Assembly (NCBI GenBank): GCA_963971535.1
Contig: OZ020601.1
Location: 24,228,471 to 24,292,470 of the forward strand
Direction: 5' to 3'
Source of the DNA: Notolepis coatsorum
Lineage: Eukaryota > Chordata > Actinopteri > Aulopiformes > Paralepididae
Length of the DNA stretch: 64,000 bases
Part shown: piece by piece, positions 18,001-24,000 of the stretch
Numbering within the stretch: position 1 is the stretch's first letter
Layout of the letters: each line of letters starts with the position of its first letter
Translations under genes and position numbers: made by a program
The notes under the pieces: generated by a model
Databases searched by the model: none
What the model was told of the DNA's origin: nothing
What the model saw: only the letters and a program-made list of their open reading frames with translations

Positions 18001-21000
18001 TATATTGTGTCCTATGTTACTTTTGTGTTTATTGTCTCTTTCTATATACACCGTGGGAAGGGGGGCACATAATTGAATTTTCTGTATGTCTTGCACAAAT
18101 TGGAAAATGACAAAGTTGACTTTGACTTTTAACATGTTTCTATGGTGTCAGACACTAATTGTAATGTTAAAAACGGATACTGCTGTAATATATAAAGTGA
18201 AATTCTACCATGCCTCAATGTATCAACTTTAAACACTAAATGTTAATGTTAGAAATGTTAATTTCCATTATTTCCACCATGTGCAACATTTCTTAAGAAT
18301 GTCCATTCTATCAACTCCAAATCTGTGCTCTGAGCTCAATAGACCTATCGCTAAGCCACGCTCCCTTTGAAAACTCTGACAAACAAAGCCGACCGGGAAT
18401 GACTGTTGACAATGGCCGTGGGGGAAGCCTATTGCTTAATGACATGTCATGAGTGCTGCTTTTGCTTCCGCGTTTTCCCTGATTGGCTGCGCCATGCCCC
18501 GCGGCAGGCGCGGCAACCGCAGAGCAGAGCGGCAGAGCGAGCGGAGCGGCAGAGCGAGCGGAGCGGCAGAGTGCGAGCGGAATTAGGTAACCGCCGCAGG
18601 AATCCGCCATGATTTTCATTCGGCGCTTCAGCTCACCTGGCATAGCAGCGGTCCGCGGTCCTGCGGTTCGTTGTTGACGAGTTCGAATCCCATGAATTAT
18701 TTTTTTTTAACATGATTTTTTTTTTAACGTGTATTCTTTCGCCGGTTAAGGTTAGGCATGGTTAAGGTTAAGGTTAAGGTTAGGCATTGTTTCGGAGTTG
18801 GTTAAGGTTAGAACGGTTAAGTTTAGGCGCTGTTAAGGAGCTGGTTAAGGTTAGAGTTTGTCAAAGAGAATGGCAATATTCTTTCTATGGTTAAGGTTAG
18901 GCATGGTTAAGGTTAAGGTTAAGGTTAGGCATTGTTTCGGAGTTGGTTAAGGTTAGAACGGTTAAGTTTAGGCGCTGTTAAGGAGCTGGTTAAGGTTAGA
19001 GTTTGTCTTAGAGACAGCCTATTTCCGCACTGCCGCTCTCCCGCGTTGCCGCGGTCACATGGTCAAATTGTCACATTCTTGCACTCATGACCTGTCATAA
19101 AGCAACACGCGTGGGGGAAGCTCAAGTTAAATTTTCAGATTTACCACAGCAGGTAATAGACCTGTTTTTTTAAAGATGACACAAATATTTCGTCTAGAAG
19201 CAGACGGAGAGGAGAGGGTTACAATACGCAGTGGAAAAGTATGTTCATGAGATAAACATTTACAGAAAAGAAACCATTAGAATCAAGGCCAAATGCTATC
19301 ACTCGCAACTGAAAAGTGAGAACCCCACAGGCTCTGTATCAATGTTGCTGATGACGACACCATCATGGAGCAGTGTTGTTCGTGTATTGCAGGGTAAGTA
19401 ATTTCTAACACATTATTACCTTAGACCTCCATGGTGATGCAAGCATTAGCTATAGATAACGTTAGCTAGCTAGCTACTCTCAAGCATTACTTACAGTTGA
19501 TTTTTTTATTGAAGATTACAAGAACTATGACGATAATCCATGATTACTACTATTGCTGATATTTTAGTTTAGGCTAGTGGTCCAACGCAGTATACAAGCT
19601 CTCTCACTCACCCGGTATACTGAGTGGGTGGGGCAGGGCTAAAGTCAGGCAGACATTGGATTTGCATATGTCAAAGCCACTGTGTAGGCCAGTAGCTAGA
19701 CCCGACAGCTGTGTCATTTATGTAACGTTAGTGATATTCAAGTAGCAGCTAGTATGAGCAGTGTTCTCAAACAGTCGGTAGCCTATTTATTTTCTCCCCT
19801 TCTCATTGCTGTTGAAACCATAGGGCACCTGGTTACTGTTCACACATCATTGGGCTCATGTACCGTTTAGATATTTCTTGTGCCCAAAAGGAAGACACTG
19901 CCTCCTGTACAAGGCCACAGCAGTGGCATAAACCCAGAGGGAAGAAGGTAGCAGGCCAGCCTATAACCTCTGCAGTCGTGGCAAAAGCCAAACTGAACCG
20001 CAAACGGAGACCAGTGATCCCCACCTACACTCCTAACAGGTAAAAGCACAATAAAAACACAGATGCATTTGGTAATAAAGGCAAAATGGTGCTCCTTCAC
20101 AGTTTTATTGGGGAGAAAAAGTAGGTGGAAAGGACTACCCCATTGGTTGTGGCTTGAGCTATCAGGTAATGGTATTCTTGAGGATGCAAGGCTGGAAGTT
20201 AGACAGCATACTCACAACATACCAGATCTGGTTGATGTTTGTCAACCTTATGTTAGGGATCCTCTCTGACACAATTTTAAATGTCTTTATCTTTGATATA
20301 GCACGTTCAACATGTATTCTGTGTGCAGCCACTTTTTTTGTCAGGCAGACATCTGTAGAGGGCATCTGCCTTTTTCTTCTGACTAAGGGTGGGAGGTTTA
20401 TTTCAAGTCCAATTTCTTGTAGGTCATTTTCAATTAAAAATCCTTTATCTACCATAAGCCCATCCCCTTCCTGCCATGTTTAAGCAGATTTTTCATTAGC
20501 TCAATAAAGTTGCTCTGCCTAACTATTTCTTTGTCAGACATAGATCCAGTGAAAAGAGTTGAACAAAATAGTACAGAACCTCGTGGATCACATGCTATGA
20601 GGGATTTCAATGTGTTTGCAGACTTGTAGGTTGAGTAGCTTTGACTCTGCAATACAAGTGAAGTTGGGGTTTGAATTTTTAACTCTGTACAGTCTAATAT
20701 TGCCATCGTTGTAGGAAATTCCTCTCTGTACTTTCCTGGCATTTGTGCCATTATTTTGTCTCTATGAGGCCATGCGGGTAGTTCCCCTAGAACTGTGAAC
20801 ATGTAGTCCACCCATGCGTTGAACAAAGTACCAACACTACGTTCATAAATCTAAATGCCAAATCTTTTAAATCATGATTTTGTCTCCGTTTCATAAGAAC
20901 AAGCAAGAGCTGCACACGCAGGGGCATTGTGTTAATTTGCCATGCTATATGTCAATGGGACTGAAGTTTGCTGTGCTGTTTCACTGCTGGGTATACTAAA

Positions 21001-24000
21001 CACAGTACATAGATTGTTGAATTGATCATAAGTGGCATATTTGAAATAGGCTGGTACACGGCTGTGCTGCAAGACCTCTGGTGTTAATCTATTTGGTACA
21101 TGATTATGTCTCAGAACAGTATTTATACTCGTCAGTGATTCGATTTGTGCTTGTTGATTTCTCAATCTTTCATCTCGCTCCTCTTGTCCACCTTCCATTG
21201 GGGGAGCCTGCTCCACAGGCCGGTGCTCCTCCACACCCTGACCTTCTTAGAGAAGAGAGAGGAGTAAGCGGGGAGGAGAGAGGGGTGATGGATAAGGAGA
21301 GAGGGATGATGGATAAGGGGAGAGGGATGAGGGGGAGAGGTGAATGAGGAGAGGGGGATGAAGGGGAGAGGTGAATGAGGGGAAAAAGGAATGAGAGAGG
21401 GATAAGAGGAGACAAATGACTCCTTGATGTTTCTAATTTTTTTCTCTCGCTGCAGCTCCCACTGTTGCAGCTCCCACAGACCAACCCAGCAACATCCCTG
21501 CCTGTATCCTCTTCCTGTACCAAGACCATCCCCATGCCCCTCTCTCCATACATAGCCATACCAACACCACAGCACATCCAGAGCTTTGATCTGGAGGAAG
21601 CAAGACAACTGCAAACCACGGGACAGGCTGCATGTCCACTGTGGCACAAGGAGCGAGAGGGCAGGCTGACTGCATCAGAATTTGGCAAGATACTAAAGAG
21701 AGAGAACATTTCAGATGCCCTCATACAGTCCACATATTACCCCAAGCCCTTCACTGCTACTGCAACAACCTATGGCTCTGCCAATGAGTCAAAGGCCAAG
21801 CAGCTGTACCAGGAGACATTTCCAGATAGGCATGTTCATAGCTCTGGCCTCCTCTTGCAACCAGATCTCTCCTTCCTTGGGGCAACACCAGATGCAAATA
21901 ATATGTGACAATGGTCAAACAGGCTTGCTTGAGGTGAAATGTCCCTTTGCAGCAAGGGACATGACGGTAGCAGAGGCAGCCACAGCCATACAAGATGTGC
22001 ATAAAGACGGAGAAGACATGCACATCTCAGAGAGGCACAACTGTTATTATCAAATTCAAGGGCAACTACTACTTAGCGGACTCGACTTCTGTGACTTTGT
22101 ACTTTTTACAAGAAGATATATATATATTGAGAGAGTTCACAGAGATATCCAGTTCATCAATGACATGATTGTAAAGCTGCACACATTCCATGATGCTCAC
22201 TTTAGTCCAAAAACATAAATCTGACCTCTTTCATTGTCACTCATGTCCTGTCTTGGGTTGACCTGTGTCAACCTATTGTCTGTTAGCCAGTTCTTTATAC
22301 TATCAATGTTGCCAGCTAGGATGTCCTGTATATGAGTGCTTTTCCCTAAAATGCATAATAAAATATATAAAAATTGCCTGTCGTGTGTAGTGTGGTGACT
22401 GTTGTGTAACCATTGAAATGATAATATGATGTTGAATGTTAGCAGTGGTGGTCACTACATTAAATCTATAACTATAACTGTCCTTGTTGGTCATCATTTT
22501 CACTGTTATGCACCTGGCTGACTGTAACGTTACCTTTTTTTGGGTGAGGGTCTGTGTCTTTTCGGAGCAGCACACACGAGAGCCCGGATGGGATCTGGAT
22601 ATTCCAGAGTTGGCTTCCCATCTCTGAAGTGCTTTGGGGTGAAAAGACGGTTAGCAAAAGTTAGCTAAAAACACCAGCTAACTAGCGAGGACGAAAAGTC
22701 AGACGGCAAACGTTGATGTTGATAACACTAGCTAGCTAGCTGGCTAACAAGTTGGCAGCTAACGTTAGCTAGCTCGGCTGGATATACGCTAGCTAGTTGG
22801 CAGTCAAAGTCAAACGTTAGCAAACTAATAGTTTGGTCTACATTTCTAATACATGCCGTCAAATATTATGTCTTTATGAATTGACCTTACCTTTGAGCAA
22901 ACATAAGTGTCCTTGGTAATTGTCTTCACATTCAGTTGTGTATGTGGTCGACGACACAGCAGAATCCACCGCTTGCATTTGTCGAGTTTTCTTTTGGGCT
23001 TCGGAAAAGGTATGAAATATACTCCTCCATCCAGTCTTTCAGGGTACCTGGTGTCCGAATTACAGGTACCCCACTCACAGCGTTTCACCATCAGATAGTA
23101 GCTAGATAATAACATATAAACTGAACTCTTCACAGTGGTTTCGATCACAGATGTTTGGTTTGATGCGCCCCACAAATGGCTTTTCTGGTGGTGTCCGAGT
23201 TTTCTGCCAGCGGGGATTTTCGCTGTGATATGATTGGACAAATTCTATTTGGGGCGTGGTTTAGCGATAGGTCTATTCTCCCGGTGCATGCCGAAGTTGA
23301 ATTGCTGTCTTGTTTTGGATGAATGAGTAGAAATGAAAAACGGAAATCTTCTTTTATTAAAGTAGTTTTGACATGTGATATAGATAAAGATATTGTTTCA
23401 TTGTGTATTGATTAACTTTTGATTAAAAATGTATTACATTTGCTCTTCATTACTTTACAAAAGTTATACTGGCACATGGGTCTAATACAGCAATGGATTA
23501 TGGGTAAATGCAACGTTAAAGCAGTGCCAATGTAAGACTGACTTTACTAATGACAATAATATAGTATAAAGTAGGGTATTATTTGCATTTGGACTAAAGA
23601 ATGGTGTTGTCTCACCCTACTCGCATGTTGAGGGAGAGCACCATACGTTATACACTGAGAAACCACGGCCGAGAGTGAGCTCTCCGGGAACAACCCCACT
23701 TTGCCGGTATCGCTTCTCTGCCTTTTGTAGGTAGGTAGTTGTAGAATGATAGTGAGGTGGGTTATAATCTGAGGGGAGAACTAATTTAAAAGTTCTTAAC
23801 ACGATCAGTGCCGGCCTTGTTTACCTTTTTACCCCCTTGAATGCCATCATCCACTTCAATGTTAGCGTTAAAAAACGCATAATCTATGTTTTAAATTATG
23901 GCTGTGTCTAATCTGCCCGTCGCTTATCAATGACTTGTTTGCAGTCAACATTGTCGAAACTGATTGTTTTTTAATCGGTTCATATCCTTTTGATAGCATT

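Follow-up and report, generated by a model that had tools for sequence, protein, structure and literature searches.

We analyzed a 64,000-nt stretch of the Notolepis coatsorum genome (GenBank assembly GCA_963971535.1, contig OZ020601.1, positions 24,228,471 to 24,292,470 of the forward strand; hereafter the window) and conclude that positions 18341-23274 are very probably an inactivated member of an autonomous ISL2EU transposon family with recent mobility in this genome. An earlier note on the same DNA had named the element as a two-gene ISL2EU transposon with a YqaJ nuclease and a THAP-DDE transposase, and this assignment is correct: the ends, the AT target and both genes are present. What is new is a family of a known kind (ISL2EU, of the PIF/Harbinger or PHIS superfamily) with a corrected gene map. 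In our predicted gene models each gene has four exons, the earlier note having overlooked one in either gene, and the exons follow one another along the plus strand in the order N1, N2, N3, T4, N4, T3, T2, T1, with the nuclease exons (N) on the plus strand and the transposase exons (T) on the minus strand. The catalytic transposase exon T4 sits inside the last nuclease intron, and the catalytic nuclease exon N4 sits inside the last transposase intron. Since the two exons lie in each other's last introns on opposite strands, the unspliced transcripts of the two genes would run antisense to one another across this region.

The whole copy (18341..23274, no strand assigned) is delimited by terminal inverted repeats (TIRs) of 21 bp, at 18341..18361 (+) on the left and at 23254..23274 (-) on the right, with both genes between them. 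The single mismatch between the two repeats and the AT on both sides had been noticed before and are confirmed; the left flank reads AAT and the right one ATT, and the inverted pair extends over 27 nt at 93% complementarity (18338-18364 and 23251-23277). When the genome (3.42 Gb) was searched for ends and copies, with the reversed end sequence as the control, the degenerate 21-mer of the TIR had 616 exact matches and the control 0, so the TIR is not a chance match. The 24-mer consisting of AAT plus the TIR, with up to 2 mismatches, occurs 755 times (reversed control, 0). AAT directly precedes 575 of the 616 exact TIR ends, which fits a target cut as A/AT/T; the TWA target duplication of PIF/Harbinger proper is not seen, the ends showing AAT/ATT instead. 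Among the retrieved copies described below, AAT is found at 10 of 12 left ends and ATT at 5 of 5 right ends, counts that omit one spurious three-mismatch match inside copy L015. The flanks of copies L009-L028, and of copy L037 from a second family, are frequently extended to CAAT...ATTG. This suggests that the preferred target may be wider than AATT.

The transposase gene was read on the minus strand (Pfam cut-offs used here and below: THAP, 23.9 bits; DDE_Tnp_4, 24.8 bits; YqaJ, PF09588, 22 bits; SWIM, PF04434, 19.6 bits). Exons T1 (22891..23091) and T2 (22534..22631) carry the first and second parts of a THAP finger and were placed by their splice join and by comparison with other copies. 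The join at 22891/22631, proposed in the earlier note, has GT-AG borders and is in phase, and the joined piece scores 34.6 bits. T3 is reduced to a remnant of about half its length (22226..22269, placed by copy comparison). T4 (20162..21245) encodes the helix-turn-helix (HTH) and DDE domains with several frame breaks, and its stop codon shares bases with the end of N3; the transposase stop codon also falls within the end of N3 in copy L026. DDE_Tnp_4 matches two frame pieces of the window T4 at 78 and 55 bits, and the three DDE residues stand in the expected order (D at 20692-20694, D at 20447-20449 and E at 20306-20308), again as previously noted. The transposase exon lengths are 201, 95, 83 and 1130 nt for T1 to T4. 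The transposase of copy L025 exceeds the cut-off in all its domains (THAP, 31.9 bits; HTH_Tnp_4, 42.6 bits; DDE_Tnp_4, 139.4 bits).

The nuclease gene begins with exon N1, whose first codons (18399..18426, with a predicted start codon) were read against copies L021 and L022 and are cut off by a nested element from the remainder (19111..19393). That remainder holds the first half of a zinc finger (C at 19377 and C at 19383), and N2 (19824..20039) holds the second half (C at 19837 and H at 19843); both were delimited by the splice join and by other copies. The ligand motif of SWIM zinc fingers is CxC...CxH. A SWIM finger rebuilt over the join 19393/19824 had been claimed in the earlier note: the join stands, with GT-AG borders, correct phase and the ligands C-S-C...C-S-H, and the profile score of 16.2 bits falls short of the cut-off. 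N3 survives as a 3' remnant (20121..20165, by copy comparison) with its 5' part deleted, and N4 (21456..22218, by profiles and copies) encodes a YqaJ/lambda-exonuclease domain with a frame break near 21905. The YqaJ motifs hold up at 24.9 bits in the first frame piece and at 43 bits when read through the broken frame, with the D, E and K codons at 21891, 21931 and 21937. In the better-preserved copy L026 the nuclease exons measure 293, 216, 145 and 774 nt (N1 to N4) and encode 475 aa with a YqaJ score of 48.9 bits. L026 N4 matches lambda exonuclease structures with a best E of 3.8e-5, its D and ExK residues aligned (1avq), and also matches phage exonuclease families. The D and ExK residues are catalytic in YqaJ and lambda exonuclease, and we infer that the encoded nuclease digests DNA. 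For the end of N3, a donor at CTG/GTAGCA was considered and dropped in favor of CAG/GTAATG, which adds 17 residues that are similar in the second family.

The assignment made in the earlier note hung on whether the two genes recur together between the same ends elsewhere, and they do. The genome contains at least 42 matches to the YqaJ exon DNA (40 of 407 candidates scored). Twenty copies were retrieved; this sample favors well-kept copies, since the length of the match and a mostly open frame guided the choice. T4 (-), N4 (+) and T3 (-) are found in constant order and strands in all 20. N3 also lies upstream of T4 in 16 of them and was not found in the retrieved stretches of the remaining L016, L017, L018 and L023. 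L015 has both ends together with exons of both genes. The nuclease frame is open across the four exons in 5 out of 20 copies (L012, L022, L026, L027 and L028), a count that rests on a shorter version of N3, the longer N3 having been translated for L026 only. The full set of four transposase exons was delimited in 2 out of 20 copies, many of the retrieved stretches stopping short of T1 or T2; of these two, the frame of L025 is open (502 residues) and that of L011 contains two stops. Six genomic places tie for an identical top transposase-exon score without a stop. These ties, together with the open frames in some copies, indicate that the family is young.

A second family (family B) was defined by transposase matches near 61% identity to the window's own family (family A). 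Its copy L037 has the ends TGACCTTTCGCAAAGCCACGC within CACAAT...ATTGTG and carries both genes between them in the order N1, N2, N3, T4 (-), N4, T2 (-), T1 (-), with one internal stop in N4; T3 was not found in L037 by similarity. L038 again has N1, N2 and T4, as well as an N4 interrupted by an insertion; no T1 or T2 was found in the stretch retrieved for it. As judged from these predicted exons, family B has the same interlocked layout as family A. The identities between the families are 40/88 in N1, 46/72 in N2, 19/47 in N3 and 78/245 in N4; the nuclease core, at 32%, is thus the least conserved part, with the D and ExK residues retained and a family-B YqaJ profile score of 69.7 bits. The finger ligands are C-S-C and C-S/A-H in family A and C-S-C and C-S-H in family B, and by these ligands the finger is conserved in both families. 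Among 31 family-B transposase places (57-70% identity, no internal stop), at least 22 are accompanied by an N2 no more than 5 kb away, with the side and strand as expected (150 of 386 N2 candidates scored); when the omitted place C6:210200746, with no N2 among the matches listed, is added, the number becomes at least 22 out of 32. At L035 and L036, which likewise have no N2 among the matches listed, no nuclease similarity was found within 9.5 kb. These two loci were first read as a family B devoid of the nuclease, and this was rejected because other family-B copies carry it.

The variants shared among copies were also examined by codon position. Variants common to at least two copies fall on third positions in 11 out of 15 cases in N1 (9 copies, P 0.002), in 10 out of 15 in N2 (14 copies, P 0.009) and in 1 out of 3 in N3 (13 copies, P 0.70), while private variants show no significant bias (N1, 5/16; N2, 6/18; N3, 2/6; N4, 29/70). 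When L022 is compared with the other four open copies, N1-N2 give a ratio of nonsynonymous to synonymous substitution rates (dN/dS) of 0.18-0.20. As those four are close relatives, the values amount to a single comparison between two subfamilies. By these substitution patterns N1 and N2 are under purifying selection.

Several results weigh against our reading of the element and of its second protein. In N4, shared variants fall on third positions in 16 out of 33 cases (20 copies including the window, P 0.05), a weak bias, and the same comparison of L022 with the four other open copies gives a dN/dS of 0.63-0.76. Part of the YqaJ domain of L022 diverges from the other copies in a pattern resembling a pair of compensating frameshifts, and the N4 ratio is probably inflated by this shifted part. 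The window YqaJ piece alone found no exonuclease structure among solved structures. The SWIM profile scores 13.5-16.2 bits in family A, always below the cut-off, and gave no match in family B at E up to 1; the finger region likewise found nothing useful among solved structures. We therefore term the finger SWIM-like, because it is under the Pfam cut-off in family A and unreported in family B. The TIRs start with AG in family A and with TG in family B, neither being the GG start that is usual, if not strict, in ISL2EU elements as described in the main text of Han et al. (2015; PMC4482050).

For the mechanism we draw on what is known of these protein families. The inverted ends would be recognized by the THAP finger and the HTH. 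The DDE domain would excise the element and insert it at AATT through cuts staggered by 2 bases, so that the AT is duplicated. With its SWIM-like finger the second protein would hold DNA, and its domain of the lambda-exonuclease type would resect the broken donor ends, so that repair would be steered to the sister chromatid still carrying the element. This gripping of DNA and resection of donor ends is the least certain part of the reading, and we put it forward tentatively, as a proposal that may well fail. There is a considerable chance, if short of an even one, that the element is the same and its nuclease is dispensable for transposition, being a passenger or serving another task such as target-site or host-defense work. 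The nuclease core is poorly conserved from one family to the other (78/245 identities, compared with 40/88 for N1 and 46/72 for N2), which speaks for this, as do the weakest constraint within family A being that of N4, the 9 of 31 family-B transposase exons without N2 within 5 kb among the matches listed, and the loci L035 and L036, which are 98.8% alike over 2.6 kb and have no nuclease match in the surrounding 9.5 kb. However, such gene-less copies may have moved by means of proteins from other copies, the D and ExK residues are retained in both families, the interlock with the transposase is kept in both, and N1 and N2 are under purifying selection.

Three further explanations concern the gene models and the identity of the element. 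It is improbable that the YqaJ exon forms a gene of its own, apart from the finger exons N1-N2: an in-frame stop after N2 (AGG TAG) would end an unspliced message and a direct join of N2 to N4 is out of phase, but the phase is regained through N3, which has canonical splice sites, the exons and phases of N1-N4 are repeated in family B, and five of the 20 family-A copies form one open frame over all four exons. The proposal in the earlier note that finger and nuclease belong to one protein is therefore supported at the level of the gene models, since N1-N4 join in phase. It is very improbable that the element belongs to another PHIS group and merely lies beside an unrelated YqaJ gene. The DDE_Tnp_4 transposase is indeed related to those groups, yet the flanks are AAT/ATT at 575 of 616 ends and not TWA, a YqaJ gene takes the place of Myb/SANT, and the order is constant in 20 of 20 copies and in the second family. 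Viral_alk_exo and YqaJ viral-recombinase profiles match the nuclease, and the text of a clam genome paper counts YqaJ domains as endogenous viral elements (PMC7826175); a relic of an endogenous virus is nevertheless hardly to be expected here, as the gene sits between transposon ends, has spliceosomal introns and recurs with the transposase, and none of the 23 pattern matches of the window YqaJ piece in viral contigs was confirmed as a relative.

The interlock implies that the separate loss of either gene is hindered; that it was selected for this reason is our conjecture. It is possible, though we regard it as rather doubtful, that the interlock is an ancestral, selected trait of ISL2EU elements that ties the genes together, with the nuclease as a true working part of transposition. 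If so, neither gene could easily be lost or traded alone, the antisense pre-mRNAs would be a built-in dose control, and the nuclease would work in transposition, probably in donor-site repair. Mutual interlocking is in any case an unusual layout, and it predicts co-inheritance and antisense overlap.

The earlier note had placed the window copy only a few frameshifts away from open genes, which is too mild. The copy has lost the 5' part of N3 and about half of T3, its T4 aligns with seven internal stops, its N4 frame breaks as described above, and N1 is split by a nested insertion of 684 bp (18427..19110, no strand assigned), a non-autonomous element foreign to the transposon. The insertion was recognized as a gap in the copy alignments: those to L021, L022, L024 and L026 jump from 18404 or 18424 to 19109-19113. 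At least 39 further genomic copies of the 684-bp element exist at 97-100% identity (40 of 1990 candidates scored); it is young, with 30-nt inverted ends and two flanking copies of GTGGGGGAAGC.

Rearranged relatives were also observed. L031, L032 and L034 were considered as possible diverged families and rejected, being internally deleted copies of family A; they share one deletion in N4 (L026 positions 6759 to 7088). L012 has tandem copies of a stretch including T2 at about 7697, 8363 and 9029, spaced 666 bp, and similar duplications are found in L016, L025 and others. L029 and L030 (reverse complement; in L029 at about 1389-1755 and 2270-2880) represent a different element that carries 369 bp of the family-A YqaJ exon plus its splice acceptor at 97% identity. 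It has its own DDE_Tnp_4-like transposase remnant, which scores 137 bits as a protein translated by eye over a frame break. The YqaJ piece in L029 ends at L026 position 6757, near the deletion shared by L031, L032 and L034. Among the matches listed, 58 cover the captured part only (query 1-67), of which L029 and L030 were the two retrieved. By its sequence this element looks like the product of an exon capture with later amplification.

Elsewhere in the window, exons matching Peptidase_C78, which we take to be a domain of ZUFSP/ZUP1, lie at 35050-35562 and 50107-50529 (+) with 46.5 and 34 bits (cut-off 29.1). An exon at 11353-12093 (+) has sub-threshold C2H2 matches; it may be part of the same gene, and if so the transposon would lie in an intron of that gene. 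A minisatellite with a 32-bp unit (12057-13220) comes right after this open frame. Long open frames resembling reverse transcriptases and endonucleases of long interspersed nuclear elements occupy 1855-3732, 56246-58634 and 60369-63844 (-). Scanning the window for Rfam families and tRNAs gave no match.

The describers of ISL2EU state that the functions of second genes in the PHIS superfamily are unknown and call for biochemistry (main text of PMC4482050). The present family is recently active, its ends and target are defined, copies with an open frame exist for either gene, and a diverged family is built on the same plan; the role of the nuclease is thereby directly testable. The element also illustrates that a YqaJ gene in an animal genome can belong to a transposon, though the text cited above lists such genes among endogenous viral elements (PMC7826175).

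Compared with known systems, the nuclease shares with lambda exonuclease and YqaJ proteins the domain, the match to solved structures (E 3.8e-5) and the aligned D and ExK residues; here, however, the domain is fused to a SWIM-like N-terminal part, and no annealing protein was found alongside. With PIF/Harbinger the element shares a related DDE_Tnp_4 transposase and a helper gene, whereas PIF/Harbinger elements have a TWA target and a Myb/SANT helper according to the main text of PMC4482050, in place of the AT target and the YqaJ helper found here. A literature search covering few subscription journals, and without Repbase, found no title or abstract opening describing the finger or the interlock in ISL2EU or Harbinger elements, and the portion of PMC4482050 consulted has no mention of a SWIM-like finger, of four exons per gene or of an interlock. 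ISL2EU as described there has an AT target, a THAP-HTH-DDE transposase and a YqaJ gene, in agreement with the transposase plus YqaJ-type nuclease given in the earlier note. Shared with the present element are the AT duplication in A/AT/T within AATT, short TIRs, the DDE, HTH and THAP domains, the YqaJ second gene and a length of about 5 kb, while the TIRs differ in starting with AG (TG in family B) and not with the usual GG. The ISL2EU elements of teleosts, compared by their description only (PMC9179366), likewise have two genes, one for a transposase with HTH or THAP and one for a YqaJ exonuclease.

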